Part shown: positions 13,645-59,165 of the stretch, piece by piece
Layout: each line of letters begins with the position of its first letter
Numbering within the stretch: the first letter of the stretch is position 1
DNA from: Isoetes taiwanensis
Lineage: Eukaryota; Streptophyta; Lycopodiopsida; Isoetales; Isoetaceae
DNA: 64,000 nt
Assembly (NCBI GenBank): GCA_021234155.1
Contig: JAJEKV010000055.1
Location: forward strand, 186,001-250,000
Direction of reading: 5' to 3'
Made by a program: the position numbers and the translations under genes
The notes under the pieces: generated by a model
Databases searched by the model: none
What the model was told of the DNA's origin: nothing
Seen by the model: only the letters and a program-made list of their open reading frames with translations

Positions 13645-13680
13645 GGCGTCAAATGTCTAACGCTTCTAACAAAATAAGTT

Positions 13681-22890: not shown

Positions 22891-23096
22891 AGCATTCAAT
22901 TATTTTAAAAATATGTCTTAATTTTGGGAGTTTTTTTTTTGCGCAGCTTCCGTCGCTTTTAGGCGTTTTTTTTCTTCCGCCGCTTTTTTTCTCTTCCCGC
23001 TCGCCTGCCCGTCACTTTCTTGAAAAGTTCCCTAATTTTTCCACTTTCCCCCTTCTTCGTTCGATGGTTCTAAGTACGCCCAATTTGGGTTGGCCT
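22891..23096. other. T/C-rich junction after PPR remnant
   Basis: Low-complexity T- and C-rich DNA with CCGTCGC and CCGCCGC words. It abruptly replaces PPR coding sequence and leads into the GGAAACCC repeat cluster. Confidence 0.5.
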
Positions 23097-30938: not shown

Positions 30939-30943
30939 TATAC

Positions 30944-34142: not shown

Positions 34143-34988
34143 CTATAAAGGTAATAAAATACCTTTTTCTGTGATGCCTCTTACATTAAGAGGCCCACAC
34201 AAATCAGTATGCACAACTTCCAATATTCCTTTTGCCTTCTTCTGTGATTTTCTAAATGGTAGTCTTGCAAGTTTTCCAACCATGCAACCATAGCACAATT
34301 TGTGTTCACTATCCAATTTGCAATCTTCAATTAATCCCTGTTTTATCATGGCCTGAATGTTCTTATTACTGACATGACACAATCTCTCAGTGCCAAACAT
34401 TAATATATACGAAACTATGATTGCATTGATGCTTGGCAAATGATTACATTCAAACCCAAAGAGATTGCCAACTCTTTTGCCCAAAAATTTTATTTCATTG
34501 TCCAAAGAAACAGTACATTTCAATCTGTCAAAATTGACAGAGTAACCCATGTCTACAAGTTGGCTTATGGAAATCAAATTCCTCACCAGAGAGGGTACAC
34601 ACAAAACATCCTTCAAAACTACTGCCTTGCCCTGTAGGTCAAACAACTCAAGTGTTCCAGAATATTGGACCTTTTGCAAATCTCCATTCCCTAATTTGAT
34701 GTAACATCCTTTTTCAATTTTTCCATCTCTAAGTAGCTTGGTCGAGCCAGTCACTGTCTTTTCTGCTCCACTATCTAGGATCAGCAGATTATTTGCATCA
34801 TTAGAATCCCTCTTTGAAATATTCAGAATATTGTTACATACCTCAGCATCTTCATCATCCTCACTGCTTTCTTCTTCAGTTTCTTGAGTTAGATTTACTG
34901 CTGATTCTTGTCTGCCAGCACCTCTCCCTTGCCCTTGTTTCCCTCTTCCTCTGCTAGGTTTTCCTCTCCTTCCCCTGCTGCTTGAGCA
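34143..34988 (-). pseudogene. pol: copia protease and start of integrase
   Basis: In the same frame as gag the minus strand reads a basic Arg/Gly segment, an acidic segment, then LLILDSGAEKTVTGSTKLL, with the DSGA active site of the retroviral-type aspartic protease. Next come VPSLVRNLISISQLVDMGY and the GAG-pre-integrase zinc region (RLCHVSNKNIQAMIKQG, CYGCMVGKLARLPF), then VVHTDLCGPL, the first catalytic Asp of integrase. The frame ends at the stop 34143-34145. Up to here only the gag stop breaks it. Confidence 0.92.
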
Positions 34989-35849
34989 TCAATTGGCAAA
35001 GTGTCCTTTGCCTCCACAGTTGAAACAATCCACATTCTTGAGTTTGGGACAGTCTGCCTTCAAATGACCTTGTGCCTTGCAATGGTAACAGGGACCTACA
35101 TTCCCCTTTGGTTTTGAACTGCTGCCTTTGTACTTGGATCTACCTGCATATAAAACTTCAACATTCTCATCATAATCATCAGTTTTATTTTGTTCAAATT
35201 CGGTTCTTATCATTTCTTCTGCCATTTCCCTTGTTCTAGCAACATTTCTTATAAGAGTGGCCAACTGCTTATTTTCTCCCACTGCCCTTGCAACATGCAG
35301 CAACTTTTGTTGGTCTGTCAACATAACACCAGCTCCCTCGAGATCTGCTACTATATTATCAAATCTAGAGAAGAAATTAGTAAGGTCATCATCTTCTCTA
35401 AGCTTAAGCTTTCTCAATTCTTTGTCTAAAACATCAATCTGTGATGAACTTTTCTCTTCAAAGTGCTTAAGCAAATACTTCCAGATTTCCTTTGGAGTTT
35501 TACCTCTGACCTTCAGAAGAATGGAGGCCCCCACTTTACTAGTTAAAATTGCATATGCCTCCTTCAATTTTGTTTTAACAATTTTGCTAGAACCACCACT
35601 ATCTCCACTTGTTGCAGTAGCTTCTAATTCTCCTGATGCAGATGCTTCTTCAGAAGGGCTATTCTCCCTTCTTCCTGCAATCATACTACTAGGAACATTA
35701 GTATTGTCAGAAATTCCATCTTCCAACAATTCCCATAGGTTTTCATTTTCAAGAACATTTTTCATTTGTTCCTTCCAAATTTGAAAACCTGGTCCTCCCT
35801 CATAGGTCTTGATTCCACTGAGGAGAGCAGCTCCAAATCTGCTAGACAT
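34989..35849 (-). pseudogene. gag: copia gag with stop in second zinc knuckle
   Basis: Starting at the ATG 35849-35847, the frame encodes a UBN2-type capsid region (GFQIWKEQMKNVLENENLWE, later VRGKTPKEIWKYLLKHFEE and LRKLKLREDDDLTNFFSRFD) and two CCHC knuckles: CYHCKAQGHLKADC, then CFNCGGKGHFAN followed by TGA and C. The stop (34989-34991) falls exactly between the His and the last Cys of knuckle two; the same frame then continues open into the protease. Gag forms the virus-like particle and binds the RNA. A CGA to TGA change would explain the stop, but that is inference. The capsid part looks intact. Confidence 0.92.
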
Positions 35850-35860
35850 TTTGATCAACC

Positions 35861-35874
35861 TGGCTCTGATACCA
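35861..35874 (-). other. Primer-binding site for initiator tRNA-Met
   Basis: On the minus strand TGGTATCAGAGCCA begins one base inside the 5' LTR. This is the standard plant copia site complementary to the 3' end of initiator tRNA-Met. Confidence 0.93.
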
Positions 35875-35875
35875 C

Positions 35876-36527
35876 TGTTAGGATCTTAGAAATGTCTAGC
35901 TATCTAACTTGAATAAACAAACTTGCAATGCAATATTCTAATGGTCTTAAAATATCATTGACTCACGAACTAAACCACTGAAACTATATTAATCAATGGC
36001 TTAAAGAAACTCATTCAAAACGACCCGAGAGCTCGGGCATTCACCTTCATTGATGAATCCAACACACTATATCTGTACATTCTTGTTGTTCTTAAATATG
36101 CAGGCACCGATCCTCAAGGATTCGGCACCGATCCGGCCCTGCCGGTACGCTCCATTCTAAGTTTAACTTAGGAGCAAGGCGGTTGGTTATTTCATCGAAA
36201 TATCCCATATATCTCCAACCATTGACCATTAGGTTTATTCAAATAAACCTTTAACCATTAACCTAAGGTCATATAATTCACTTAATAACCTGTCAACTTA
36301 GGTTAACCTTATTCTCTAACGTCTGTGCTTTGTGTATACTGTAAACTCTGTGAACCTGTTCAACTCTTTGATCTGTATGAGAACTTCTGTCTTGACAACC
36401 TCTGTGATCTTCATAATGCAATCTTATCAACCTGTATAGCATATCTTCAAACAACCAATTTAGAACTTCTCAAAGTTCCCTTGTGAAATGTTCAACCACT
36501 ATTATAATATGAACTGCAACTCTTACA
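35876..36527 (-). repeat. 5' LTR of the complete copia element
   Basis: 652 bp and apparently identical to the other LTR. It would carry the promoter that drives the minus-strand transcript. Confidence 0.96.
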
Positions 36528-38215
36528 TATACAAGTTTGGAAGAGTAAGATGTACCAAGAAGAGTTTTGATAAGCTGCTATTTTCATGCCCTGCTTTATG
36601 CAATCAGAGAGAATATGTTTCTCAGTTCTATATTGCCATTCTGTTTACAGTTAGTTTAACAGTTTGACACAACCCACCCAAGGCAATTTCAATAGAACTA
36701 GGCAATTTCATTAGATCTATTTTTATTAGGTGAAAACTCTCGCTCTTAACGACGTTAAACTTTACATAACATTAGACAAGTGAAAATGTTTTCATTTGGC
36801 TCTGGTGGTGCAGAATGAATTGGCATAACATCAGAGGTGGTGAACATGTTGTCATTCACGCTCGGGCAATGCACAATGAGCTAAGCTATAAAGGATTTCT
36901 TAAATTTCCTACATTAAAAAATCTTGCAAATGACATCACATACTTTAGCAATATTTGTAGGCCTGACATGTGGTAAATAGGTTGTTATTCGAGCTCTGGT
37001 AATGCACAATGAGCCAGCCTTAAAGGATCTTTTAAATTTATACATTGTCGAATGAGCTAGCCATAAAAGGATTTCATTAGATTCATACATTAGGATTTCA
37101 TTAGATTCATACATTAGAATTTTTTTAATCATTAAACATGATGTATAATCCTTTGAAGTTCATACAACAACTATTAACAAGTATAGTTGCCCTTCTACAA
37201 ACTACTAACAAATCAAACAACTACATGTAGTGATAGAAAATAGGAGGAAAATGCATGGCTCCTAACACGTTTTCCGCAATTCTCTGCTACCCTAAGCTTT
37301 CCCCGACGTCAAACTTCCTTCTCAAATTCCTCAAGTTTGATGAAAGTGCGAGCAACAATTTGTACATAGTATTTTCTTTCTTACTCTAACCATAACAACT
37401 TCAGACAATATTGTGATCAACCCAGATCAAATTTTCGAATCAGATAATGGGCTATACACCATTTCCTTTATTGAATTGCGGGGCATCCAGAACTGTCCGG
37501 CCACTTTCCATTAGAGGCAATTTGAGATCTCATTTCATCCCCATAAGAATCCTCCAATAGAATGGCTACCCTCTATAAACTGCAATTAATGCAGCACCAA
37601 CAACTTCATTGCTTTTGTTTTTCCCCCATAACTTTTGATCCACTCGTCAAAATGCTGCGGCGTTTGTTGCATTTGATACGAAATGAAAAGATCTTTCTAA
37701 TGATATATGGTTATGATGTATTTCAATATGGTCATATGCGTTAACCTTAAAAAAATATGATTTTTTACTTATTTCTTGTACATTTATATCAAGAAAGGTA
37801 TATGAATGGGTTATCATTAGATACATTTTGAGAAGACGAACCCATTGCTACAAAAAGTGTTTGAATCGGAGTTCTGGATCAAAAGTTATAATGAAAAACT
37901 GATACTACGGAAGTTAGTTGCAACTGCATTAATTACAGGCTGCCACATAATACTGGAATGAGATACACTGGAACTCTTCTCTTATTGGACAGTTTAAAAA
38001 GCTGACGTGGCATTTTAAGCATCCCTTAATGGGACAAAATGTGATCTCATATTTCCTCTAATGCCTTAGATATTTTCTAAGTGCCAGTTTCTTATTCCAT
38101 TCTACAAGATAAATTTAATGTTGTGAGTCAGGTAAAGGCCAACTCCTTCACTGCATTGTTTGGTTCAAGGATCGGTGCATCAACAAGTATCCAGACTACT
38201 CAAGGTATCTTTGAC
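36528..38215. other. Intergenic with inverted ATAACTTTTGATCC pair
   Basis: AT-rich. CCATAACTTTTGATCCAC near 37627 and GGATCAAAAGTTATAATG near 37876 are inverted copies about 250 bases apart. The same word occurs at 42568 with GTTGGAAAGCTCTC downstream. Direct repeats of AGGATTTCATTAGATTCATA occur near 37065-37115. No gene was recognised. Confidence 0.5.
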
Positions 38216-40360
38216 TCGTTATTCCATTTTTTTTTTTTGTTGGTTTATGAAGTTTGAAGGAAAATTTGCCTTCTGCCAATGGGAAAGCCCCAGACTTGGA
38301 TGGTATGCAGGAAGAATTGCTTAAGTGGACAGGGCCGTCCATAATACCAGTGCTGACCGCCTTGTTCAACAAGGCATTACGGGGAAGGCTTCCATTGCGA
38401 TGGACCAATAGCGAGTTGTTCCCATCTATAAAGGCGGGTGACCCTAACTTTGCCCGATAACGAAAAATCATGGTGGAGTTCGGTGTTTGCAAAACTCCTT
38501 CTTGCGGGATTCTCGGCAGCGAAGCGACCGGGCCGGGGAGCAGCGAAGGTGTGGGCCCTCACCAGGCAGGATTCGGACCGACACTCAACCATTGACCACA
38601 TCTTCACGTTGCGAACTTCGATTGAAGGCGGTAGGGAACGCCCGTCAGGATCTATATTGTTGTTTTTGTGGATTTTTGGCGTTTGATTACGTAGGCTCGG
38701 GATAAAAACTATGGGCAAGATTGCTTGGTTTGGGGTTCTGTGACATTTGCGGGAATGCGATTAATGCGTGCTATATGAAAGATGATGCTCGGGTCGGTTG
38801 CGTTAAGACAAGCCAACCATTTGATAGTAGTATCGGGTTGCCCTCTCTCCCCAACATTATTTGGGCTTTTACATTGATCAATTGGAGAGCGGGCTTCGAT
38901 AATGGGGGCGATGGAGCTCACCTTCTTTATCGGATCATCAGGCGTTAATATATGCCGATGATGTGGACCTCCTAGCTTACACACCAGCCAGACATGCAAC
39001 GACATCTCGATGCCCGGACACATTACCCCGCGGAGCGATATATGGCGTCAACTTTGGTCAAGACTAAGGTGGTTTTCATATCATCTTCACGTCCACCGAG
39101 GGTCCCCTCCTTGAGTTACCAAGGCCCAGAATGTGGAAATTGCATCCACATACAAGTATTTGGGAGTGGTGTTTCCTTCTACTATGCTTTGGGACACATC
39201 CATGCGCTACGAGTGGACGGCGGTGGAAGGCACTATATGCAATGCAAAACAATAGTCATAGAGCGGAGTTGTATGATTGGGCCCATCGGTCACACTGTTC
39301 AAGGTCTTAGTAGAGCCTGTCCTTTTATATGGGGTGGAAGTATGGGGCCCAGTGGTATCACTTGCTACTTGGAATGACTTGGGGCAGGTCGAGAAAGCCT
39401 TCTTGAAATACGAGCACTAGGGGTGAAGTCCACGGTCCCATATCAAATTCTACTTTGCGGGGAGACGGGGATTCTTGCCTCTTGAGGAGGGCAGCCCTTG
39501 ATCGCCACATTGTCTATTTTCAGAAGGTGGTCAATATGGGACGATGCTCGTCTCCCTAACCTAGCTTATATCATGGCAATGGGGCATGCCGCCTCAAGGC
39601 TTCTTTGGAGGAAAAGAGAGCTCAATGGTTGGCTAGATGGAATGTGCGAGAACACGAGTGCATACATATGCAAAGCGAGAGGCGATCGCCATAGCTTGAG
39701 AGACAATATCTTGACGCTTGCTTCCTCGGCAAGCTTTGGGATGCCAATGCCCTTGAAACATGTCAAGACAAAGCACACTATCAGTAGCCACATAAATCCC
39801 ACATTGGAACGAGGCCGCAATGCTACCGCGTACCCACTTGCCCATGAAAAGGCGGAGACTCATTGCCTCCATTCGCCTGGGGGCACATCATCTTTGAATT
39901 GAGCGGGCAGATGGATTGGTGAGCCACGCCCGGGGACAGACTCTGTCAATCTTTGCCAAATGGGAGTCATTGAGGATGAATCTCATACCCTTCAAAGTTG
40001 CCCAAAGATATGATCAAATTCCGGACGCCGCTATCCGAAGTTGGTCGGGCCGGCCAGCCATTACATGTGACATTGAGCACGAGATCCGACGGGTCTTTGG
40101 GATCATACCTTCGAGGAGGTTATGGACATGCGAGATCAGCTATGTCCTCGGGCACACACTTGACATGTATATATACATTGATGTATACTTGTACAGTTTG
40201 ACAGCATTCTTATTACTGCCACGATTTTTCCCTCGAAAACCCTTCGGGGCGGGGGTTTTTTTAACTCGGACAGTAATAAGTTTGCTGCGCTCCTTGTGGG
40301 TCCCATAGGCCGATTGGCCTCAGTGGACGATAAAAAATTATTCTCATTCTCATTCTTCTG
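38216..40360 (+). mobile_element. 5'-truncated non-LTR retrotransposon (LINE) copy A
   Basis: It carries RT-type sequence, a long decayed C-terminal region and a 3' end identical in layout to the copy ending at 59165: a fold-back with CCTCGAAAACCCTTC and GGCGGGGGTTTTTTT, then GGGTCCCATAGGCCGATTGG, CCTCAGTGGACGATAAAAA and a short (ATTCTC)n tail. The sequence is GC-richer than its surroundings and the frame shifts often. It starts just before the RT domain, as does the copy at 45.1 kb. Confidence 0.85.
38254..39900 (+). pseudogene. LINE reverse transcriptase pseudogene (copy A)
   Basis: 38254-38460 reads NGKAPDLDGMQEELLKWTGP, VLTALFNKALR and the word AGDPNFAR, the N-terminal RT blocks of LINEs (GPDGxxxELLK ... 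LFNxxL ... KGDPxxPxNYRxI). 38580-38640 reads DRHSTIDHIFTLRT, the (R)S-TxDHIxxLR block before motif A. The motif A and YADD regions are not intact in any frame. Later pieces (38960-39900) match the C-terminal region of copy B (for example LPNLAYIMAMG at about 39555). The product would have been the endonuclease-RT polyprotein; it is inactive. Confidence 0.82.
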
Positions 40361-45082: not shown

Positions 45083-46733
45083 CTAAATCACTAAATGTCG
45101 GGCAGCAGTACCTCCGCAGACAAGCCTAGCACTGGTCATTACTGAAGGGGATGTCATAATGGGCCTGCAACGCCTCGCTAATGGGAATGCAGTAGATTTG
45201 GATGGTATGCAGGCAGAGCTTCTCAAGTGGGCCGGGCCCCCAATGGTGCCGGTTCTCACAGCACTCTTCAACAGGGCATTGCAAGAAGGCTTCCCCCCGC
45301 ACTGGACTACCAGTAGAGTTGTGCCCATATACAAAGCAGGGGACCCCCACAGCCCAGCCAACTATCGTACCATTATGGTCAGTTCTGTCTTTGCCAAGTT
45401 GCTCGCCGGGATTCTTGAGCGGCGACCGACACTTTGGGCGAGGGATGGAGAAGTGCGGGCTCACGCCAGTGGCGGGGCTTCCGCCCGGCATTCTACTATT
45501 GACCATATCTTCACTCTGCGAACACTCATAGAGCTGGAATCAACGCCCAGAACCTGTCATTGTTGCTTTGTGGATTTTAGGAAAGGCTTTGGACCGCAGT
45601 GCCTCGGGATAAGTTGTGGGACAGATTGGAGACAATTTGGGGACCCCCGTCGACTTGCGAGAATGCTATATCTGATACTATCTGAGGCTTGCTCCTATTC
45701 GCCTTACATTGTCGGGGAGCCCGTTGTTAGTAGCATTGGGGTGCGCCGAGGGCTGCCCTCTATCCCCGGCGCTCTTCAAGCTTATACATTGACCAGCTAG
45801 AAGAATGGCTAGCTTGAGCAAGGGGAGGGGGGAGGCCGATTGATGCACCACATAATCCGGCAACTCATATATGCTTGATGATGTTGACCCGCTCACATAT
45901 ACCCGGAGGACATGCAATGCCACCTAGATGCTTTGGACACTTACGCCAATTCATTCGGCATGAGAGTTAACTTGGCCAAGACGAGGGTGTTGCTGGTCCC
46001 ATCATCCCAACACCACGCCTTCCCTCATTCACTTACCGGGGGGCAGGTAGTGGGAGGTGGCTCTCGATCTTATAAGTATTTGGGCATTGAGTTTTCTACT
46101 ACCACACTTTGGGATGCATCCATCGTTACTGGTCCTTCGCAAGCCGGAAAGCCTCAGATGCAATGCAAAACAACAAATACAAGGTAGAGTTGTATGCATG
46201 GGGTCACGCGCACACACTTGTTCGGGGCCTTGGTTGAACGGTCCTCCTCTATGGGGCGGTGTGGGGGCGATGATATCCCTCACCACTTGGAAGCGATCCG
46301 GAGCAGGTACGAAGGCCTTCTTGGCCCGGCACCGGGAGGAAATCCACGGTCCCCATATCAGATCTTGCTCCAGGAGAGACAGGCTTCCTTCCATTCTGAG
46401 AGGGGCTGCCTGGTGTCACATTATTTACTTCCGAAGGTGGTGGCTATGGATGAAGCCCGGCTGCCCAACCTTGCTTTGGCAGTGGCGATGGGCCCGCAGC
46501 GACTCAAAGCCTGCTGGAAAGACAAGCAAGCCCAGTGGTTCTCGCGATGGAATGTGCAGGCACACAGATGTGGACCAGTGCATACACACCGAACGCTGGC
46601 CCGCCTTTGAAGCAAGACTTGGATGCTTGCTTCATGGCCAAGCTTTGGGATGCAGAGGCCCTGTCACATGTCAAGGTGGCAAATTATCGACAGCAGGTTA
46701 ATCCCATGCTCACGAGGGGCCCACACCACTACC
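45083..46733 (+). mobile_element. LINE copy B, left part (split by insertion)
   Basis: This is the RT-containing half of a LINE copy whose C-terminal half and 3' tail resume at 58606. The protein reading can be followed across the break: TRGPHHY before it, and a HLPM/KKA word, then HHLRIEAGRWIGG after it, the same order as in copy A at 39.78-39.9 kb. GC-rich, decayed. Confidence 0.88.
45159..46733 (+). pseudogene. LINE reverse transcriptase pseudogene (copy B)
   Basis: 45159-45800 reads NAVDLDGMQAELLKWAGPPM, VPIYKAGDPHSPANYRTIMV, RHSTIDHIFTLRTLIELE, CCFVDFRKGFG (motif A; the usual KAFD is changed to KGFG), then SSIGVRRGLPSIPG (motif B, usually GVRQGCPLSP). The YADD motif C near 45875 is broken by an extra T (ATATATGCTTGATGATGTTGA). 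Further on are YANSFGMRVNLAKTRVLLV and YKYLGIEFSTTTLWDA, the post-motif-C region, then PHLPNLALAVAMG-type C-terminal sequence. It once encoded the enzyme for target-primed reverse transcription. Frameshifts make it inactive. I do not assign a LINE clade. Confidence 0.88.
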
Positions 46734-46760
46734 TGGGTGAAAGCATGTTGTAGTGGAACA
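46734..46760 (+). repeat. Left 27-bp TIR of the large element
   Basis: TGGGTGAAAGCATGTTGTAG plus seven more bases, perfectly inverted at 58579-58605. Confidence 0.92.
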
Positions 46761-46920
46761 AAAACGTGCATTTTAGCACCACATTTTTGGGTGCTAAGTG
46801 TGGTGGGAACTACCGAATTTGTAGTGGGAGAGGGAGTTATTTTTTCAAAAATACACATGATTACTTATTCAAAATTTTGTCCTTTTCGGTCTTATTAGGG
46901 CTTATTCAGCAACGCATTAA

Positions 46921-47050
46921 CGATCATTTTCCCTCAAAACTCGATCACGCTCCCTTAATCCGGCAAGACCATTTCTGATTCTGAATTTTCATTTTCCCTC
47001 AAAAACTCTGATCACGCTCCCTTAATCCGCCAAGACCATTTCTGATTTCT
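46921..47050. repeat. Tandem duplication near left end, about 65-bp unit
   Basis: CATTTTCCCTCAAAA, then TGATCACGCTCCCTTAATCC and CAAGACCATTTCTGATT occur twice in a row. Confidence 0.85.
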
Positions 47051-47664
47051 GGCAAGAAGATCGATCACCAAAAGGCTCTGATCATACCGGACTTGAATGC
47101 CACGGGATACACCTACAAGGAAATGTACAGGCAAGAAAAGCATCTTATGCCACACAAGAAGAAATCGAGTCTGTTTGGGGACCGAAAGTATTAGGAAAAT
47201 CCACTTACAGGTGGGTTGCATTCTAGATTCGGGGATGCCCATGATTCTCTGTTGTTTAGAATATTGTTTTGTTTCATCATGCAGGTTGAAGAATCTGAGC
47301 AAGGAGAGGTATAATGAGCCTTTACAAAAAAATCACAGGCAGGAAGTGTGCCTGGGGAGGCATGGCCTCTGGACTATGGGCATTTGCGTGTTACCTTCAC
47401 ACAAAAGGAAAAGAAATAAACTGGTTGAGTTTCTGGCAACAGTTAAGAGAAAAAGGGTCTGAAGACTCTCCGTCCCAACGTAAGAGGAAGCATGCAAGCA
47501 TTTCAAATAGTGTGGAAGCAGAGCAACCTGCCACAGATGATGCTTCCTCTCTTGAAATGACTAGGCCACAATTCAAGCCTCCTCAAGCTGTAAGAAGAAT
47601 CTCGGGGAAAATCACTGAAAAAATAGGTACTTTTCAACCCTCTTCTTCTGGAACCACCATATGA
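47041..47664 (+). pseudogene. Left gene of the large element, exons 1-2
   Basis: The frame is open from about 47041 to a donor at 47210/47211 (TTACAG|GTGGGT) and resumes after a pyrimidine-poor acceptor CATCATGCAG at 47284/47285; the 74-base intron keeps one frame (SVWGPKVLGKSTYR into LKNLSKERYNEPLQ). After a shift near 47330 it continues CAWGGMASGLWAFACYLHTK, SFWQQLREKGSEDSPSQRKR and GTFQPSSSGTTI. The product is basic with a Ser-rich end. I recognise no family. Both splice sites match the plant consensus moderately well. Confidence 0.4.
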
Positions 47665-47829
47665 TGCAATTTAATATTGGAACTGTTATTTTCCAGCAAG
47701 GTCTAGCAAGCTTGAACAATCAGGTACACCACTTACTTCTTCATTTGGGTGTGTTGTGAGTTATGTGTAGGAAATTTGTGCTGCTAGTTTCGAGTTGTGG
47801 TGGATAATTTCAGTTCACAGTAGTATGTA

Positions 47830-48420
47830 GCTCCAAATGTGTTACAGGACAGTCATATGGTGCCAATTATATGTTAATAATGTAGTTTGTAGCATATGTA
47901 GTGTCACATATAGTACCAAACATGGTACCTTATCTGAATAGTGAATTGGCTTCCATATGTTTCTATACTTAGTGTCATATGTGATGTTAGATATGGTGAT
48001 ACTTGTGAATGGTGGATTGTCTGCCATATGTGGTGCCAACTGCTGCGCTAAATATTGCACCACGCTATCTGCCACATATGGGGTGGTGGATGCCTGCCGG
48101 ATGTGGTGCCTTCTTTGCATTGTGGTGCCACATGTGGTGTCTAATGTGGCACCACTATGGATCCACATTTTGCACCACATGTGGTGTCTTTGACGCCATT
48201 TGTGGTGCGAAGTAATGGATTGCCATATGTGGTGCCTTGGGTGCATTGTGGTGCCATAGGTGGTGTGTCATGTGGCACCAGTTTGGTGCCACATGCCACA
48301 CCACATGTGGTGAATATGACGCCACCCTGGTGCCACATGCCACACCACATGTGGTGAATATGACGCCATTTGTGGTGCAAAGTTTGTCATGATGTAAAGT
48401 GGTGCCTGTTGTGTCATGTG
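47830..48420. repeat. TGTGGTGCC / CACCACATGTGGTG array
   Basis: More than fifteen copies of CATATGTGGTGCC-like words occur, many as palindromes such as CACCACATGTGGTG (near 48171, 48300, 48342), at 25-40-base spacing. The palindromes can form hairpins. Confidence 0.88.
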
Positions 48421-48544
48421 GTACTAACCTTGGATTACTTTCCAGTTGAATTCAACAGGACACTGGGAGAATGGATCAACTCTACAAGATCAGAAGTGAT
48501 TCAGTGTAAGGCAAGATCAGAAGTGATTCAGTGTAAGTCTGCTC

Positions 48545-49615
48545 AAGCTACTGAGGCACTTACAGGTGAGCACTTATAGGTAGCTTAGTTTACATGCTAA
48601 GGGCCTGATGTAAGGGACAGATGCCAATTAGGATTAGTGGACTTCCTAATCTTTCACCCTGGCTTAGTCTCTTTCGTTTGTCCTGTTTGATGTATCTAAT
48701 TTGCCCCTAGGATGAGGTAAGCTCACTCATTTTAGGTGGCCCTGGAATTAGATACATCAAGCAGAAACTCAAAAGAGTAAGCCTGGCTTAGTCTCCTTCG
48801 TTTTCTGTTTGATGTATCTAATTTGCCCCCTAGGATGACATCGCTCACTCAGGTGGCGAATTAGATACATCATGCAGGAAACTCGAAAAGGGAGTAAGCC
48901 CGACATAAAACAAGATCCTGGCTGGCTTAGTCTCTTTTGCTTCTCCTGTTTTGTGTATCTAAAGTGCCCCCAGGATTCTTTGAATGCGGATTCTTTGAAT
49001 CACCAATACCATCTTCCATGTCTTTCGGCCTCTTGAGGTACTTCATAACAAAATTCCTGGGGTGCTTAGTATAATTGTATTCTCATTGACAAATTTATGT
49101 TCACTTTGCGAGGATTTGTAATCCACATTGCATTGAGAATTCTTTGTCATGAATTTTTCAAACATGGGTACAAGCCTTAGGTGTGAGTAGGGAGGATCAA
49201 AAGCAACTTCAAGCCTCTTGAGGCACTTACAGTGTGAGCACTTATAGGTAGCTTAGTTTACATTCTAAGGGGCGATGTAAGGGACGGATGCCAATTGGGA
49301 TTATCACCCTGGCTTAGTCTCTTTCGTTTATCCTGTTTGATGTGTCTAATTTGCCCCCTAGGATGAGGTCGCTCACTCATTTTAGGTGGCGAATTAGATA
49401 CATCAAGCGAGGAAACTCAAAAAGAGTAAGCGGAGCTTAGTCTCCTTAGTTTTCGTTTTGATGTATCTAATTTGCCCCTAGGATGACATCGGCTCACTTT
49501 CGGTGGCTTAATTAGATACATCAACGAAAACTTCGAAAAGGGAGTAAGCCCGACATAAACAAGATCCTGGCTGGCTTAGTCTCTTTTGCTTCTCCTGTTT
49601 TGTGTATCTAAAGTG
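48545..49615. repeat. Duplicated block of four tandem fold-backs
   Basis: A block of about 420 bp (48545-48970) recurs at 49205-49615. Each copy holds two adjacent hairpins of about 120 bp with arms GGCTTAGTCTC...GATGTATCTAATTTGCCCC and the inverted AATTAGATACATCA...AGTAAGCC. Between the two blocks lies about 230 bp of unrelated sequence (48975-49204). Confidence 0.85.
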
Positions 49616-49624
49616 CCAAGTCAA

Positions 49625-50062
49625 GTCAAGCTCCAGTAGGTGCTCCACACCAATCTGCCAAATCAGCGGATGCATCGGGTTATGATCTCGAACAAATCGT
49701 TTGGTGAATGTAAGTCACAAGGTAACTTCAACCTTTTGTGCTGTCTTCTTCTTTTAATTTGACCCATATAGTTACCAAATCTCATTAAATTTTTGCAGCT
49801 GGAAGTGTCTCGGAGAAAAAGCAAAAAGCAGAATTCAAGCAAAAGACACCTCCAAGACATTCGGAAGCATATATGTGTCTTGCTATATGTGTCTTTGTAA
49901 AGCATGTTGTGGCTCTTGATAATCTGAGACTTGGACATACTATCCCAATGCAAAGGTGAGTTCATAAATTTGAAGGTATTACTCATCAATGTGAGGCCTG
50001 ATATGTTTGTTGCGAGGGTGTACCAATTTCTAGTTTGCGGTTTGTTGGACACGCGAGAATGA
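49625..50062 (+). pseudogene. Left gene of the large element, distal exons
   Basis: The plus strand reads APVGAPHQSAKSADASGYDL, a donor GTAAGTCACA at 49709, a 90-base intron ending TTTTTGCAG near 49798, then SVSEKKQKAEFKQKTPPRHS, YMCLAICVFVKHVVALDNLR and LGHTIPMQ. After a one-base shift it continues INLKVLLINVRPDMFVARVY and QFLVCGLLDTRE with a stop near 50062. The composition is protein-like and the splice signals are good. It may be the same transcript as 47041-47664. No family recognised. Confidence 0.45.
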
Positions 50063-50289
50063 TGATTGATGTTGTGAAGCCACGATTCTTTGTAGTAATG
50101 AAGGCGAGGTTAATGGATCAATAGATCTTTACTTGTAATCACATGTTTGTATTATTGTAACCAAAGAGGTTATTCTTGTAACCTATTCTTTCATTGACAC
50201 TCTAATGTACATTGTTGTATACTATTGTATACAATAGACTTTTTACGGCTGACGAGCAACACTCACGGTGGAGTTCAAATCTCGGAAGA

Positions 50290-51010
50290 AATTGATGTAT
50301 TCAAAGATTCATGACAATGTGGTGTTACATGTCGTGATAGATGTGGTGATGCAAATGGTGCATGTGGTGAATCATGTAGTGCGTTTGGTGAACCATGTGG
50401 TGAATCATGTGGTGAATCATAGGTGGCATCTTTGGAGCTTCGTGGCATGTTGGAGCCTAGGTGGCATGTTTGAGCCACCTTGGCGTGTTGAGCCTAGGTG
50501 GCATATTGGAGCCACCTTGGCATGCTTGAGCCTTTACATGACCTTTGTTACATGTTTGACTTTCATTGACCAACATGTTTGGTGATGCAAATGGTGCATG
50601 TGGTGAATCATGTGGTGAATCATAGGTGGCATGTTGGAGCTTACGTGGCATGTTGGAGCCTAGGTGGCATGTTTGGCGACCTTGGCATGTTGGAGCCTAG
50701 GTGGCATATTTGAGCCACCTTGGCATGCTTGAGCCTTTACATGACCTTTGTTACATGTTTGACTTCCATTGACCAACATGTTTGGTGATGCAAATGGTGC
50801 ATGTGGTGGATCATGTGGTGCATTTGGTGAATCATGTGGTGAATCATGTGGTGAATCATAGGTGGCATGTTGGGGCTTACGTGGCATGTTGGAGCCTAGG
50901 TGGCATGTTTGAGCCACCTTGGCATGTTGGAGCCTAGGTGGCATGCTTTCGGTCTATGTGGCATGCTTGACCCTTTATTGTGGCATGTTGGAGCCTAGGT
51001 GGCATGCATG
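50290..51010. repeat. GGTGAATCATGTGGTG and AGGTGGCATGTTGGAGCC arrays
   Basis: Two interleaved repeat types: (CATGTGGTGAAT)n blocks near 50360-50425, 50590-50625 and 50800-50865, and GCCTAGGTGGCATGTTTGAG blocks near 50430-50540, 50625-50740 and 50865-51005. A unit of about 215 bp combining both (with TTTACATGACCTTTGTTACA) is repeated twice. Confidence 0.88.
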
Positions 51011-51178
51011 CAAACGTCCCTTTCCTCTTCTGCCTCATTCCCAAAATCGTATGGATGCCTACGATTTGCATCCCTTTTATTCCCAAAATTCTGTCCTGCA
51101 GCTTCATTCCGTCCCCATCGTCTATTCCGCCATCTCCTTCACTCCTTCCCCATTCCGTCCATCTCCTTCACTTCCGCC

Positions 51179-51417
51179 ATGGCCAAGTTCAAGACTACAC
51201 TCGCGGGAACACTATCCCGGCCATTGTGCTCGCTCCCTTCAGCGGACGCGGTCAGAATCCGTGGCTTCTGCGGAGGATCCGTCTCTTCCTCCACCGGAGG
51301 AGGCCGCCCGATTCTGATGGTGGCCAAGTTCACTCCACCAGAGGTGGGAAGCTCATCATGGATCATCAGGCGCCGGCCGTTGCGGGTGCTTTCAGTGGGT
51401 GCATGCGGGTTATGATG
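51179..51417 (+). CDS. Short GC-rich ORF, possible captured host fragment
   Basis: A GCCATGGCC start context precedes an ORF of about 79 codons (MAKFKTTLAGTLSRPLCSLP, RIRGFCGG, SSTGGGRPILMVAKFTPPEV, IIRRRPLRVLSVGACGL). The Arg/Ser-rich, acid-poor start ending in RGFCGG resembles a mitochondrial presequence. The patch (51020-51470) is much more GC-rich than the rest of the element, and repeats lie directly to its left. A captured first exon of a host gene would explain this; chance cannot be excluded. Pyrimidine-rich sequence upstream (51110-51175) looks like a plant 5' leader. Confidence 0.35.
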
Positions 51418-51470
51418 GCGAGGGGCGACTCCTCGAAATGAAGATGTATGCTGAGGGGCGACCTCCATAT

Positions 51471-52257
51471 AGAGCTCAAGATGGCCCCTTTGATTAGTTT
51501 AGATTTGTATTGTAATCCCTGGTTTCAATTTTTTTGGCAATAGTCCTTGTGACTATTCTTTGTAAAAGCTTTTCATTAATGAGAACTTGTTTTGCAATAG
51601 TCCTTGTTTTGCAATAGAACTTGTTTTGCTTTAAGCATTCTCTGAGTTTCCACTTTGTTCTTTTCGGTTAATTTGAACTTTTGTCATTAATTATAAAATG
51701 CAAACAAGGAATTTGAAGGTGCGAGAATCTATGATACGCACACTAACAAAATATGGTAACCATTTCGACCAAATAGGAAAATATGAGATGGGTGGCTCGG
51801 GTTCAAAAGAAATAGAGTTCAAAAAAGCGAAAAGAAAAACCACGGAATTCCACGAAGCAAAAGTTAGTGGCCTTGCAAGAATCTTTGCACAAAAGCGAGC
51901 TCAATGAATTTTGGCCTCATATCAATTCGGGGGACCTAATTTGGGATCCATATATTCTTTGTCACCAAAATCGGTCAAGATACTATCGGGAATCACGAGA
52001 GCCATTCCATTTTCGGCCGGGTCAAAAATGGTCAATGCCCCCGGCTGATTATGGTGACATCGTGGTGAAATTTGTGGTGAAAAATGTGGTGAAAAGCTGT
52101 GGTGAAGGTTGTGGTGATGCAAACGTTGTTTTTATATTTCAAAGGGAGAAAAATACATATGGATATCTACCACACCCGGTAGAATAGTTCATACTTCTTA
52201 TGAAATGAAGTATGCAGAAAAATCAGGGAAAACTATAACCCTGAGCTTCTAGTATTA
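51471..52257. other. Inside large element: small ORF and GTGGTGAAA repeat
   Basis: A 69-codon basic plus-strand ORF (51698-51907, KAKRKTTEFHEAKVSGLARI) is protein-like but not recognised. 52058-52115 is a (TGTGGTGAAAA)n array of five to six units. Duplicated CTTGTTTTGCAATAG words occur near 51585-51625. Confidence 0.4.
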
Positions 52258-52680
52258 TCAAAATGCATTAGAGATATAATAATAGCTGTTTTGAAGGTTA
52301 ATGATGACATCTGATTCTTGGGCCTCAATCAGATCCTGCATTGTGAGATCTGTAACTCTTGTTCTTCCAAGTATGTCCAAGATTTCATCAAGTTTTTCTG
52401 CTGAATAGTTGGTGAAATCCAGCAACACTAAAACATGAGCTTCTCGTTTCTGCTCCCACTTATGATACAGATTCACAAAGTATTGTCTCAGGTTGTTGTG
52501 TCTCCATGCGGTGGCTTTGTTGAGCACTTTTAATGGCTGAAGCATGGATCATTTCCTGCTTTAGTTCGATGAACATATCCTCTTCCTCAAGCATGGGGGA
52601 GGCTGCGAACTCATCCTCGAGAATGTCGAACCACGTCGGTTTGCACCAGCTCTGTTAAGTCTCCGCATGCATCACGTGTA
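52258..52680 (-). pseudogene. Small minus-strand gene of the large element
   Basis: Two frames join by a shift near 52540. The upstream part reads SWCKPTWFDILEDEFAASPM and LEEEDMFIELKQEM. The downstream part (52545-52258) reads LKVLNKATAWRHNNLRQYFV, NLYHKWEQKREAHVLVLLDF, LDEILDILGRTRVTDLTMQD and LIEAQESDVIINLQNSYYYI. The protein is acidic-helical, about 140 residues. The shift could be an intron edge or a mutation. No family recognised; its place between the other element genes suggests an accessory protein. Confidence 0.4.
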
Positions 52681-53238
52681 AAACAACATCATTAGTAATA
52701 AGAAAGGCAACCGCCTATCAACGCCTTGGCTTCTAATTCTTTAAGCCCATCGAGGAATTAACCTATGTTTTAAGCCTAGAATACCTCGAATTCATGGGTC
52801 CTCCGCTCCTCTAATATCGCCTCTGTTCTGGTTTATTTGCTCCGGTATAGGTCTTACGAGATGCAGCGCATTTGAACTGGCGAAATTGTTTTGTGCCGTG
52901 TTCTCCTTCGTTTTCTTCCGCCATATTTGGATCGGGATAAGCCAATGTGCGCATGCAAAACTAGATTTAGGGTTTCCCTCAATCTTTCTGCCTGACCACT
53001 TTTGAATGATTGAACTTGCATTTGATGTAATGATTTCCGGTGGTGGGTTTCATCATGTGTTTCTCTGTCCCATTCCGTTCATCCTTAATGTAATTTTTAC
53101 GTGTGTCACTTTCACCTGTCAATTAAGCGGTAAAGATTGAAGAGTGAAGATTTATATTAAACATATAAAATGATTACATAAGGTTACATTTCAGATTATA
53201 TACACTTGTTTTCATTCACGTGGGTCTATCAAAAGAGA
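52681..53238. other. Inside large element, non-coding
   Basis: I see no gene. The stretch lies between two minus-strand genes and would hold the upstream region of the 52.3-kb gene. Confidence 0.4.
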
Positions 53239-54130
53239 TCACGGGTCCGGCTCCTCCTCGTCATCTTCTATGATCACCGGATCGGTGGCCACCCGGGTCA
53301 GCTTTTGACCTATTTGCTCCCATTCGGAGGAAAGCAAAAACCATAATGGTGGAGTGTTACCAACAGAATAGCGGCTTCTCCATGTCCATCTGCAAGGCCT
53401 TGTGATGATAGTACATATCCACGAAGTGAAGGAATTGGTCCCTCTGTAAACAACCTATCATAACAAAAGAGGAACTTTTGTTTTAGCGTAAAAGGCTTGG
53501 TAGCCATTAAGCGAGAAAAGGTCTCAACCTTTGCAGATCTGGTCAATAGTATGAGGAACGGGCCAAAGATCTTTGGTGTGTAAAAATTTGATGGAAGGCT
53601 GAGTAAGTTGAGAGATGCGGGGGCTGTGGTGTACAATTCAACCTCTGGTGAGAGTTTTCAGCATTTACGTGGTCATATTCTCATCAGGGTGAATAGAGTA
53701 ATTTCTGTATCTGAGCATGTCCATCCATTCCGCATGGCTGAAAATCGGGACAGCACGCCCTAGGTATTATGGGCTCTTCTTCTCCGGTCACATTGTCCCA
53801 TTCAGGCACTCCATCGTTTTTGCAAAGATCCAAGAGGTGAAGTTGGCCATGTCTGCTGTAGTAGCTGCTGTAAGCTGTAAACTGTAAACTGCTTCCCACC
53901 ACCAGAAGAACGTAAATCAGAACCGCTTCCCAAGGACCCTTTTATCAAAACTATGCGCTCGAGCCCCTTGTAATTGCTATGAATAAACTTCGAACTGGGG
54001 GAGCAAGAAGAATGGCATCTCGGCCTTTTGGGTTGCCCGAGGTCATTAATTTTCGCCATCCCATAATGATTTTTCGGCACGGGTCCCCCCAAAGGATGAT
54101 GAGAGGAATTGATGGGACCGAGAGAATTTA
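53239..54130 (-). pseudogene. Second minus-strand gene of the large element
   Basis: Reading on from about 54130: PVPKNHYGMAKINDLG, SPSSKFIHSNYKGLERIVLI, a shift, YYSRHGQLHLLDLCKNDGVP, EWDNVTGEEEPIIPRACCPD, FQPCGMDGHAQIQKLL, a shift near 53690, LSLPSNFYTPKIFGPFLILL, LTRSAKVETFSRLMATKPFT, LSSQGLADGHGEAAILLV, and an acidic end (IIEDDEEEPDP) with a stop at 53239-53241. The product would be about 290 residues. I recognise no domain. The gene sits about 370 bases downstream of the large transposase-like gene, in the same orientation. Confidence 0.42.
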
Positions 54131-54179
54131 AGGAAAAGGAAAGTATTTCAAGAGAAAAAGCATTCGTGGAAGGATCTAT

Positions 54180-54310
54180 CATTGGTTCGAGAAGAGAAGA
54201 CGAGAAAGTGAAACACGTGGTGAAACATGTAGTGAAACACATGTGTCACCACATGTGGTGAAACACATGTGGTGAAACATGTGGTGAAACATGTGGTGAA
54301 CCTGGGGCAT
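54180..54310. repeat. (TGTGGTGAAACA)n array
   Basis: About ten units of GTGGTGAAACA/CATGTGGTGAAA with one inverted step (ACACATGTGTCACCACATGT near 54238). It lies between the 3' end of the large gene and the next gene. Confidence 0.88.
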
Positions 54311-56370
54311 GTTACATCAGGGACATCAAAATACAATTACATATTACATCAGAAGCAAACATATTACATTGAAACAAGGGACATCAAAATACAATTGAGC
54401 ATGGAATTGAGTTTCTTATATTATTCCCAAACAAGGCAAGACACAACAACATATTCAAAATTTTGAATCATTTTCTAACCTGTAAGAATGTGTTCGGCTA
54501 TTCTTCATCGGACATGCTATCTTCATCGAGATAAAACCTCGGGCAAGTTTTCTAGAATCTTTTCCTCATCACTTTTGGTCTAGCGTAAGCAGTTCGAGCA
54601 CCTTTCTTGATCTGCTACATGGGAACTCGAATAGCACAAATTTGAGTAGAGAATACAAGTGACTTTGGCTCGTTTGTCAACAACTCATACATCACCTTTG
54701 ACGGAGGCTTCTTTCTATAGTAAATGCCCTCCACAGCGGTTTCACCTCTCATAAACAAGTTTCCGTTCGCTTGAAGTCATTTTCAACTTCAAATTTTGGC
54801 TTAGTGCATAGCAACATCAAAATACAAAATCCTCCTCGTTCCCTTTAGGTGCGCGCAAGCTGCAAAAGTCGTCTCCTTCTCTAAGTGTACGCAAGTACAT
54901 TTTGCCAAGGTTGAGTATAGTGGCACTGGTAGACTTGCGGGTCTCTTCCACATCCGCATGAACATTGGAGGATGGTTCAACGACTACAAGGTCCCATTCA
55001 TCTACATACAATTCGTTCTCACACATGTCCCATTTTCCATCCAAACAATTCTTTGCAAAAACATGATAGCTTTCGGGTATGTACACGTGTGTTGGATTTC
55101 TGTCTTTGAATCCATGGACTGAATGAATTTGCTGGTTTACCGGAATTGTCTCTGCACCCCAAGCCTTTTTTCTGTTGATATCCTCGGGTTTTATTTCTTA
55201 AGTATCTCGAACTTTTCTTCCATTTTGGTCCCCTCGGATGTACCACATTGAAATTGTTTTTTACGCAATTTTCACCACATCATGGGCATTATCTAGTTTA
55301 ATGTCGGGATGTTTAAGTTGTAGACCTCGTATCCATCTTTTCAATTCTGCTGCCTTCCCATCATGTTCACCTTTTCCATGGTTTGATCAAAAAGTTCCAC
55401 ATCATGTTGACCTCGTATCCTGGTTGTACCTTCCAACAAAATAAAATGATCAAATTTGCTTTGAATTGTGATGCGACACCATCTGAAAATACATAGTCTT
55501 TGTTTGGGGACATTGCCTTTTTGCTTTAAGTACTCAAAATGTTTCATAAAACAATGTTGAACAAAAAGTGTGTCATGTTCCTATCATCCAGACACATAGT
55601 AGTGTGTTTCCTTCTCAATGGTGTACATACGTGGATCAACACGATAGGTTATTTGAACAAATATAGTTATCGGTTGTTGACCCAAATAAGCATGGGTGAA
55701 CTTCATTCTGCTCCTTAAAAGTATAATTCTCTGCGAAGTCAACCACGGATAGGTAAGCATCTCGGGCAAGTTATCAAGGAGTTCTTTATGCGGCCCTTTT
55801 GCCACTTATATCCGAAGTTGTGTAAAGGAAAATTTGGAAGCTTCTCCAACATTTTGTTCACTGGTGGAAGACTTGCGGTTTCATTGTGTTGGTGAGCGAG
55901 CTTAGACTTCTTCTTTGCCATCTCGAATCTGAGTTTTTTCATAGTCTAGGTATTCCCACTTCACCATGCCACTATCACTAGATTGTTCATGTGGGCGGAT
56001 AGGGAACTTCTTAATCCCACTCTTTACACTCACCCGAATGCATTCCCTCTTATGGTAAGGTTGGAAGCTAGTTTTCTCACATAAAATTCCCGCCCACGGA
56101 CTTCTTGTGCTACTTATTTTGTATTCGGGCATACTGCATTCACCATATATGTCGACACCAAAGGCGACAAGTGCATTTGCAGCTTTTGGGTGCTTAGTTC
56201 TCATACTATTGAAGCCATCTATTAGCATCTCGCATTCTAACATGGTATATCAAAGCACAACTATTGAAGTCCTTTAATTTTACAACAAACCATGGTTTCA
56301 GCTTTTCAAACATCCTCTGTTTGATCATAACACTAGGATGTTCCGTCTTGAATTTCCTGAACAATTGCAA

Positions 56371-56998
56371 CTGCAAGGAAGATAACAAGGTGATTAGCAT
56401 ATTTATTGCACACTACATTTTCCACCACACTAGGCACCACATAGCATATATTACAGACATTCATCTTACACCTCCTTATTCACCACACTAGGCACCACAA
56501 CGCATATATTACATAATTTATTGTACACCATATTTTTCACCACACTAGGCACCACATAGCATATATTACAGACATTCATCTTACACCTCGTTATTCACCA
56601 CACTAGGCACCACATAGAATATATTCTGACATTCATTTTACACCATATTTTTTCACCACACTAGGCACCACACTAGGGCACCACTGGCACCACACTAGAC
56701 ACCACACTAGGCACCACACCATGTTATTCACCACACTAGGGACCACATAGCATATATTACAGCATTTATTTTATACCATGTTATTCACCACACTAGGCAC
56801 CACATAGCATATATTACAGCATGTATTTTACACCATGTTATTCACCACACTAGGCACCACAAAGCATATATTGTGACATTTATTTCACACCACGTGCCTC
56901 ACTACAAAGAACAACCACATATCACAAGCAATCACTAACCACATACCACATACCACATTAACAATAAAAATGTGGTGAAGATGAAGAAATGAAATAAC
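56371..56998 (-). other. Intron filled with CACCACACTAGGCACCACA repeats
   Basis: The 3' splice site TCTTCCTTGCAG precedes LQLFRKF in frame. The donor AAG|GTTATTTC lies next to the end of the upstream exon, but the phase is off by one base, so an indel near the exon end is likely. The intron carries about ten units of CACCACACTAGGCACCACAT, AGCATATATTACA (56420-56870), one of the element's repeat types. Confidence 0.65.
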
Positions 56999-57458
56999 CT
57001 TGTGATTCTTCCGGATAGTGAGTGGCATGATCCTCTCTTACATTTCGTTCCAATCTTGAACTTAACATCCTTTGCATTTGGAGAGACCCCTGTTTTTGGT
57101 CCAAAATTGCTTTGCACAAGTTCTATGACAAATTGGGAATTGGGGACTGCTCTTCTAACTCTTTTGTACAAAACCCATTTCCCCCCTTTGCAATCTATCT
57201 CTTCCCTCTTCAATTTTGCTTTGGTAAGATTCCTAGGATGAACACCCAGCAGTTTACCAAAACCCCGAGCACTGACAGGATTAGCACTTTCGGTATTAAT
57301 GCTTCCTCTTACGGCCATAGCAAGGCAACTACTCTTGGCTGCTAAACTGTCATTGCTGTTAGACTTCTTCACAAGTTGAATGGAAGCCCTGAGGTTGCTG
57401 ACCACAATGCTCTTGGCTTGCAAATCTTTCAGCTCTTCGCCAAATACGCTGTCCATTG

Positions 57459-58005
57459 CAATGTTGTTAAAAAACCCGTTTTTTATTTTTAAAGTACCTC
57501 TATAAAAATCCTCACGTTTTTTAAAGGATTTTTATGATTTGGTATGGCCAAAAATAAAAAATAAAAAAAATGCACATTCTTTGCGCTGCTTTATTGGACA
57601 TGTTTGTTATTGTTAAAATGCACATTTTTGCTACAAGTTACAAGACTTAGCATTCTAACAAGTAAATCAGTAGCTTATGATGCTATTAGAAATTATTAAG
57701 TTCAAGTACAAAGATATCATAGCAGTTTTGCCATGCACCTCTTAAGAATGTTGAGAAAAACATTATTAAAGAGGTAAAGAAATTTAAGAATTTCATGAGT
57801 TCAAGAATATTATATATTTGGATAAAAAAAACCACAGTCTAAGGATTTTTAAAGATTTTTAAGGATTTTAAAGATTTTAAAGATTTTTAACGTATTTTAT
57901 ATGAAATACATTTTTAAAGATTTTTTCCAAAAATTTTAAAAATCTTCAAAAAATCTTAAAAAACGTTTTTTAAACGTACGGATTTTGACGTACTTAACAA
58001 CATTG
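57459..58005. mobile_element. hAT-type MITE, 547 bp, 8-bp TSD
   Basis: The ends are CAATGTTGTTAA (57459) and TTAACAACATTG (58005), followed inward by A- and T-rich DNA with GATTTTTAA repeats. The perfect 8-bp duplication GTCCATTG lies at 57451-57458 and 58006-58013. The CA(A/G)TGTTG terminus and 8-bp duplication are typical of hAT elements. It is non-autonomous (no coding capacity). It interrupts the transposase-like gene, and the frame on both sides matches once the insert and one duplication are ignored. Confidence 0.92.
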
Positions 58006-58578
58006 GTCCATTGTGTCATCCTGCAGATAATCTAGTAAAACCTCTTTCTTATCGCTGTTAGACAAGCCTTTAGTGGTGCTATGAAATGAAGATAACAATT
58101 TTAATACCATCCGACGCCTAGTAGAGGCCGTTCTGGTGGATCCTCCCTCTGCTGATGCAATTTTTGCTAATTCTTCTTTAGCTTCCCTTTGTCTTTTCCT
58201 TTGGCGTCTTTTATGATCCCGTTCTTGTTGCAGGTTCTCTTTCTCTTACACCGTGCTCGGTTTGAGATTTTAGGCGATTTGCTTCCAAATTAAATGATTG
58301 AAGGTATGAACGGATTGATCCACAACGGATTAAGCGCCATAGCCGTGTGCTTGGGGAAAGCGGGTGGGTCGTGGGTTTAGAAATCGGTTGATTGGAGATT
58401 GGAATGGGACGGGTGGCATAGGAAATTGGAATGGGACGGGTGCGAGGGAATTGGGTTGTTGCAGTTCAAGAAATGATTGAATCCAGGCGGTACATGCACT
58501 AAGGCCAAACAAACATTTAAAATCGCACCACAAATTTGATATCTCCCACCACATTTTTAGGGGGCGGGGGGGCACCGG

Positions 58579-58605
58579 TGTTCCACTACAACATGCTTTC
58601 ACCCA
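58579..58605 (-). repeat. Right 27-bp TIR of the large element
   Basis: Perfect inverted copy of 46734-46760. Confidence 0.92.
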
Positions 58606-59165
58606 CTGCGCACCCATCTACCCATGAAAAAAGCAGGGTGATTGCTTCCATTCGCAGACAGTGCACACCACCTCCGCATTGAGGCGGGGAGATGGATTGG
58701 GGGGCAGCGTGAGGACAGAGTGCATCCGATCCGGTCCCCAGGCGCCATTGAGGATGAAAGTCACGCCCTCCGGGCCTGTCCGTCACGAGCATATCAGGGC
58801 TCGGTATGCTCGATTAGTTGTGCCCCATCAGGCCTCCCGCATGAGCTACCGAGCACGGCCTCTGTAGGCTTGTTGGGATCGTACCTCGAGGAGAGGTAAT
58901 GGATCACGGACTCGATTATGCCCCGTCCGGCATTAACCTCAATTTGCATGCTTGTGATTATGTATATAAGCGTCATGTAAAGACATCCTTATTGCTACTA
59001 AGGTTTTCCCCAAAAACCCTTGAGGCGGGGTTTTTAATCACGTTAGTAATGTCGCTCTTTGCTCTCTCTTTGTACCTGGGTCCCATAGGCCAGTTGGTCT
59101 CCGTGGACGATAAAATCATATTCTATTCTATTCTATTCTATTCTATTCTATTCTATTCTATTCTA
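58606..59165 (+). mobile_element. LINE copy B, right part and 3' end
   Basis: The C-terminal region reads HHLRIEAGRWIGGQREDRVH, then RSPGAIEDESHALRACPSR, the Cys/His-type end (xLRIExGRWxGxxREDRxCxxCxxGxxEDExHxLxxCP) found in many LINE polyproteins. The 3' end follows: a fold-back with GGTTTTCCCCAAAAACCC and GAGGCGGGGTTTTTAATC near 59001-59038, GGGTCCCATAGGCCAGTTGG, TCTCCGTGGACGATAAAATC and an (ATTCT)n tail (59120-59164). Confidence 0.88.
59120..59164 (+). repeat. (ATTCT)n LINE tail
   Basis: About nine perfect pentanucleotide units at the 3' end of LINE copy B. Confidence 0.93.

Follow-up and report, generated by a model that had tools for sequence, protein, structure and literature searches.

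Background

The described systems that come closest to the element reported here, an 11.9-kb insert in a stretch of 64,000 nucleotides of the Isoetes taiwanensis genome (contig JAJEKV010000055.1, positions 186,001 to 250,000; in the following, the window), are DNA transposons with terminal inverted repeats (TIRs) and a transposase of the DDE/D type, i.e. with the catalytic residues Asp, Asp and Glu or Asp. Repbase comprised 20 DDE/D superfamilies in 2022 (PMC9587614), a later count put them at 21 of 23 (PMC10045372) and another later count arrived at 24 superfamilies in all (PMC12730594). Sola (Sola1, Sola2) resembles our element as a TIR DNA transposon with a DDE/D enzyme, and AcademX resembles it in its long elements and target duplications of 3–4 bp (PMC10045372). 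Sola, Academ and Novosib are set beside it by description only. EnSpm/CACTA, Lanisha and the CMCT clade as a whole (EnSpm/CACTA, Mirage, Chapaev, Transib, Plavaka, ESTA and Lanisha) have TIRs, subterminal arrays, short duplications and a DDE/D enzyme in common with it, Dada, hAT, MuDR, P and Kolobok the TIRs and a DDE enzyme, and Zator is likewise a eukaryotic DDE transposon.

With a probability of roughly 0.9, the insert is a degenerate copy of a long cut-and-paste DNA transposon present in high copy number. Its transposase is a member of a widespread eukaryotic family that could not be placed here in a named superfamily.

Ends, target duplication and further copies

The element sits inside an older long interspersed nuclear element (LINE). 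The features of its boundaries are as follows.

45087..46734, plus strand: LINE coding part upstream of the insert (frame and paralog alignment)
46731..46734, no strand: left target duplication, ACCT (LINE paralog and frame; paired copies)
46735..46760, plus strand: left TIR, 26 bp, GGGTGAAAGCATGTTGTAGTGGAACA (shared by the left ends of 20/20 fetched copies)
46796..46829, plus strand: second shared terminal block, left, with TGTGGTG and TGTAGTG spaced 21 bp
58523..58556, minus strand: second shared terminal block, right end
58579..58604, minus strand: right TIR, 26 bp (compared with other copies)
58605..58607, no strand: right target duplication, decayed: ACT, one C fewer than ACCT
58605..59134, plus strand: LINE part downstream of the insert (paralog alignment)
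38275..40356, plus strand: LINE paralog without insert (empty-site comparison)

The host genome (1.66 Gb) was searched with the left and right 300 bp of the element, giving 574 left-end and 465 right-end candidates, of which 40 each were scored. Apart from the window itself, identities were 96–97% for the left and 91–92% for the right ends. All 40 left ends begin at query base 1 or 2, as do 39 of the 40 right ends (one begins at base 4), and most scored right ends are about 12 bp longer than that of the window. The 20 highest-ranked left-end copies, selected by likeness to the window's left end, were then taken with 10 kb each. Both ends were read in 12 of these further copies, in two within the 10-kb stretch (L018, L021) and in 10/10 at the predicted places; in the remaining 8/20 the right end was absent within the 10-kb stretch, to which the search was confined. 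A preliminary description of the window had anticipated loci with both ends 8–15 kb apart; 12 were found, and the lengths worked out for four of them (9.6 kb for L018, 9.0 kb for L021, 12.3 kb and 10.7 kb) range from 9.0 to 12.3 kb. Many copies hence have in common the TIRs that mark a cut-and-paste element. The insertion is confirmed as real.

The same description had reported a perfect 27-bp inverted repeat. Such a repeat is indeed read at both ends in the window (46734-46760 and 58579-58605), and its first 22 bases, allowing up to 3 mismatches, have no further occurrence in the window and none in 100 shuffles. Its length has to be corrected: the outermost T/A pair varies in other copies (T, A, C or G) and therefore belongs to the flank, leaving a true repeat of 26 bp. 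Since the base outside GGGTG varies among the 20 left ends (T in 11, A, C and G in 3 each), the element starts with GGG; the excess of T probably reflects the ranking, which favoured copies sharing the first base of the window element. The repeat begins with GGGTGAAAGC, and the true termini are GGG...CCC. In the other paired copies left and right repeats are identical (8/12) or differ by one mismatch (4/12), and their match ends after the same base in 12/12. Furthermore, 27 of the 34 bases of the second terminal block agree between the window's two ends, which was equalled by 0 of 1000 shuffle pairs, and in both blocks the spacing from TGTGGTG to TGTRGTG is the same 21 bp.

The target duplication, which the preliminary description had left to be found, is 4 bp long and perfect in 8 of the 13 paired copies (window included): AGTT (L009), TAAT (L011), CCCT (L012), CAAA (L022), CACT (L016), ACCC (L020), TATA (L027) and TTCT (L017). 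The fixed-length duplication expected of cut-and-paste transposition is thus observed at 4 bp. In L010 it is imperfect (TCAT/TCCT), and the window copy reads ACCT at its left end versus ACT at its right end; the latter fits the loss of one C, because the LINE frame and the paralog imply an original ...TAC CTG CGC.... A first reading from the LINE frame alone, a 3-bp CTG or a 1-bp duplication, was dropped after other copies showed 4 bp. Within the 13 paired copies, a small set, the target sequences show no evident preference.

That a LINE is interrupted by the element, as had been claimed, is borne out by the paralog without insert in the same window (38275-40356), which aligns unbroken over the insertion point as a single alignment of 2163 columns at 63.9% identity, with a gap of just 2 bases at the join.

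Transposase and its relatives

57997..58245, minus strand: possible first transposase exon with a basic N-terminus, only suggestive (best match E 0.05)
~54585..57531, minus strand: transposase gene, disrupted by frameshifts and stops and spanned by relatives from an N-terminal exon to the C-terminal domain
55738..55740, minus strand: predicted first catalytic Asp codon (VVDFAENY)
55481..55483, minus strand: predicted second catalytic Asp codon (FSDGVASQF)
55360..55362, minus strand: predicted third catalytic Asp codon (GEHDG)
G000:C23:260684-262534 and C1033:1677488-1679314: examples of full-length, stop-free transposase frames in the host genome

Taken piecewise, the minus-strand frames from 57531 to ~54585 all match a single protein family. 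The window copy has lost the capacity to produce the transposase. A read-through query retrieved 23 proteins at E <= 1e-3, with 27–37% identity in 22 and 21% in one; none of the 23 carries a precomputed Pfam domain. Profile searches yielded 270 relatives (120 of them listed) and 97, respectively. Among the matches listed, those with an organism stem from a moss (Ceratodon purpureus), a liverwort (Calypogeia fissa), two conifers (Cryptomeria japonica, Taxus chinensis), Klebsormidium nitens, a mollusc (Littorina saxatilis) and a moth (Spodoptera exigua), accompanied by one EukProt transcript. Those with an organism are labelled hypothetical, uncharacterized or unnamed; most entries are without a name, and none of those listed has a transposon name.

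In a Pfam scan of 65 members no family occurred in more than 4, and no transposase was among the 25 of 34 families shown; NCBIfam gave no match in 6/6 members scanned. Because no matching Pfam or NCBIfam model turned up for the members scanned (65 and 6, respectively), the earlier suggestion of a poorly described DNA transposon group holds, the main protein being the transposase. Three weak candidates were rejected: a DUF6597 domain (4/65 members; best E 2.4e-4, its 21.6 bits falling short of the cut-off of 27), the MURB-like protein of maize MuDR (1/65 members, E 0.13) and a tudor-like C-terminal domain deduced from a Spindlin match (E 0.14). Two of the 97 relatives have Pfam assignments of their own, leucine-rich repeats in a Klebsormidium entry and a SAP domain in one unnamed entry. 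The Klebsormidium nitens protein P0122, which joins leucine-rich repeats to the transposase, could represent either a gene fusion or a mistake in annotation.

The typical signature of the transposase is DFxxN...SDxxxSQ[FY][KR]...HGKGxxD. Predicted structures of its relatives show a fold of the RNase H-like integrase/transposase type, in which three Asp residues are invariant. In folds of this kind one Asp lies on or near each of beta1 and beta4 and an Asp or Glu near the following helix (PMC5718144); this arrangement is found in the model of the moss relative, with D323 in strand 317-324, D415 in strand 409-415 and D463 two residues before helix 465-477. The glutamate of HGKGE was discarded as third catalytic residue: it is near-invariant in 22 sequences, but in the wider set Glu occurs in only 42/64, and the Asp two places further on is present in 64/64. 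A viral structure library contained nothing below E 1e-3.

With the moss protein as query, the host genome gave 12,195 first-look candidates. The 58 that were scored show 33–43% identity to the moss protein, and 18 of them have no internal stop. Open transposase frames in the host suggest recent activity. No relatives were found, by protein or by terminal repeat, in viral and genome contig collections, and a plasmid search gave no match. The motif strings were not found in paper text; we do not claim that the group is absent from print.

Several observations weigh against our interpretation. Three of the 13 paired copies (L018, L021, L028) have no target duplication. For the better model Foldseek returned no PDB structure below E 1e-3, and for the first model its single match was the nuclease NurA. 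Substitutions among the copies are spread evenly over the three codon positions, with 93/96/96 in the ORF (open reading frame) downstream of the left ORF described below and nearly evenly with 29/18/30 in a transposase piece; selection on the left ORFs is consequently unsupported. No terminal repeats were found in the 10-kb stretches around three intact relatives in the host genome (L040-L042). A looser repeat search requiring a 4-bp duplication gave 0 hits in each of the three and 1 hit in 4/6 controls, for which halves from different loci had been paired, and the three stretches hold only 1, 1 and 3 TGTGGTG motifs. As these relatives lack the ends and arrays in the stretches read, the 4-bp duplication and the arrays are shown for the family of the window element only; several families of the transposase group may coexist in the host. 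Finally, transposition itself is a reading from sequence, and binding to TGTRGTG is putative.

Placement among DNA transposon superfamilies

A tentative placement, to which we give slightly less than even odds, is an unnamed superfamily that is characterised by a DDD transposase, GGG..CCC termini and 4-bp duplications and is distributed across land plants, streptophyte algae, animals and probably protists.

The element could instead represent a lineage of a superfamily that already has a name but little documentation and for which no Pfam model was found; the likeliest candidates are Sola (Sola1/Sola2) and the branch of Academ with a nuclease. We regard this as a serious possibility, if still a somewhat improbable one. 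Sola1 and Sola2 have target duplications of 4 bp, and animal relatives of the transposase would fit a widespread named group, yet none of the listed relatives bears a transposon name (most are unnamed, and 150/270 are unlisted). The 4 bp of the element also agree with the 3–4 bp of AcademX (PMC10045372), and in one mollusc survey (PMC10294476) no elements were longer than those of Sola and Academ; AcademX, however, encodes a nuclease, and six-frame Pfam scans of the left 7.7 kb of the window element and the first 9.9 kb of L012 revealed no nuclease or other domain above the cut-off, the copies being broken and L012 being read to 9999 only. The absence of a family from the structure match lists carries no weight against that family.

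Other named groups are set apart by termini, motifs or duplication length. Retroviral integrases and mariner-type transposases (Mos1, SETMAR) appear among the structure matches listed with 5–15% identity, whereas the transposase of the element has Asp as third residue and additional Cys-rich and C-terminal parts. Neither group was matched by sequence. No integrase was among the PDB sequence matches up to E 1, nor did the 25 of 34 Pfam families displayed for the 65 members include a profile of the Ginger1, IS3EU or retroviral type. hAT, MuDR, P, Kolobok and Dada carry a signature C/DxxH motif after their second and before their third catalytic residue (PMC9587614, PMC3706591); the conserved His 457 and 462 of our alignment (415-463) have no C or D three places before them. 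Zator is distinguished, by description, through its 3-bp duplications (PMC10045372) versus 4 bp in the element.

A relationship to CACTA/EnSpm, within the CMCT clade including Lanisha, is very unlikely. It would be in keeping with the subterminal arrays and with the 4-bp duplications, which fall within the 2–5 bp of the clade. Lanisha, moreover, was reportedly described by authors with a record in moss genomics (reference in PMC12730594), and one relative of the transposase comes from a moss. The string CACTACAA does occur within the repeat, but it lies five bases from the inner edge and faces outward, and the termini are GGG...CCC and not CA...TG as in most members of the clade; a CACTA membership based on this string was therefore rejected. 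The C(2)C/H(3-4)H motif of the clade is likewise missing between the last two acidic residues (columns 415-463): the best Cys column (417) has Cys in 41/64 without a second Cys, and the H457-H462 spacing exists, but H462 is present in only 48/63.

A pair of unrelated insertions or of distinct LINE copies that mimics one element, a caveat already attached to the preliminary description and suggested by the LINE halves being only ~64% like the paralog, is a practically negligible explanation given the same two ends in the same order at 12 other loci, the largely colinear interiors of other copies and the LINE alignment, which crosses the join with no more than a 2-base gap.

Subterminal arrays, open frames and two forms of the element

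47097..47664, plus strand: left inward ORF region, two overlapping frames in the window, no Pfam match
48029..48377, plus strand: TGTGGTG-rich subterminal array
50317..51006, plus strand: TGTGGTG / GTGGCATGTTGGAGCC tandem array with a 203-bp higher-order unit (same array in L009, L016, L020)
52062..52117, plus strand: TGTGGTG array
54208..54300, plus strand: TGTGGTG array
56393..56906, minus strand: CACCACA array of 57/58/115-bp units, inverted relative to the left arrays, between the transposase 5' exon region and the rest
L018:3314-3967, plus strand: NIF (FCP1/SCP-type phosphatase) open frame in the insert of the second form (29.3 bits, cut-off 21.8)

The TGTGGTG arrays noted previously are largely a property of the element, as 60 of the 67 TGTGGTG/CACCACA occurrences in the window fall within it. 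They point inward from both sides, with 33 on the plus and 5 on the minus strand left of 55 kb, and 1 on the plus and 21 on the minus strand right of 55 kb. A DUF5575_C match in the array region was judged unconvincing (E 0.18 in the window, 0.0099 in L012). In addition, 48543-49617 contains two direct copies of ~430 bp, 666 bp apart and 86% identical, each with internal inverted repeats.

Of the inward-pointing genes that had been proposed for both ends, the right one is the transposase; on the left an ORF recurs in other copies (one ORF of 205 amino acids in L023, 191 in L009) without belonging to a Pfam family. A coiled-coil-like ORF downstream of it recurs in L013, L018 and L019. Six-frame scans of the window, L012 and L018 gave no family above the cut-off for either ORF, and a Fez1 match over the coiled-coil-like ORF of L018 was too weak to be convincing (E 0.025).

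The copies occur in two forms. Those of the first (L009, L010, L011, L012, L016, L020, L027) are mostly colinear with the window at 86–98% identity per block and carry the core of the transposase gene, the alignments holding stops in 7/7. Those of the second (L013, L017, L018, L019, L021, L022, L023, L026, L028) contain a 1.6-kb insert that is missing from the first form except for pieces in L016 and L027; pieces are also present in L025. Where the stretch reaches (L018, L021, L022, L028), the second form is without window positions 53138-56439, i.e. most of the transposase gene, and retains ~56439-57458, its 5' part, which tblastn recognises only in L022 and L028. The remaining four of the 20 copies (L014, L015, L024, L025) align partially to the window element. 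The NIF frame in the 1.6-kb insert is probably a captured piece of a host gene. Alignments of this frame to the other eight second-form copies all contain stops, and the substitutions are evenly distributed over the codon positions (107/123/129), as expected of decaying copies.

Proposed mechanism

The element was mobile in the past. Its transposase, perhaps together with the left-end protein, would bind TGTRGTG motifs, both those of the repeat and those of the subterminal arrays that point inward, pair the element ends and cut at 5'-GGG...CCC-3'. The element would then be joined to a target opened with a 4-bp stagger, presumably by cut-and-paste rather than by copying. Copies without most of the transposase gene must either have been moved by enzyme made elsewhere or have lost the gene after insertion.

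Significance and neighbouring features

The transposase family may have thousands of copies in one plant genome and has relatives in moss, conifers, algae and animals. As the relatives listed carry only the labels hypothetical, uncharacterized or unnamed, or none at all, annotation pipelines may miss the family or count its members as genes. The ends, the duplication length and the catalytic triad provide a basis for building profiles and for counting, dating and classifying copies.

Outside the element, the window contains a recently inserted Copia-type long terminal repeat (LTR) retrotransposon (30942-36528); its 655-bp direct repeats share 100% identity, and its gag and pol frames are long. 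Two frames of 226 and 217 amino acids at 13678-15212 include, by eye, a methyltransferase-like stretch, VLDFFSSSAFSRAALHVGR. At 22512-23336 a frame resembling, again by eye, a pentatricopeptide repeat (PPR) protein is part of a plant organelle-type PPR gene or a fragment.

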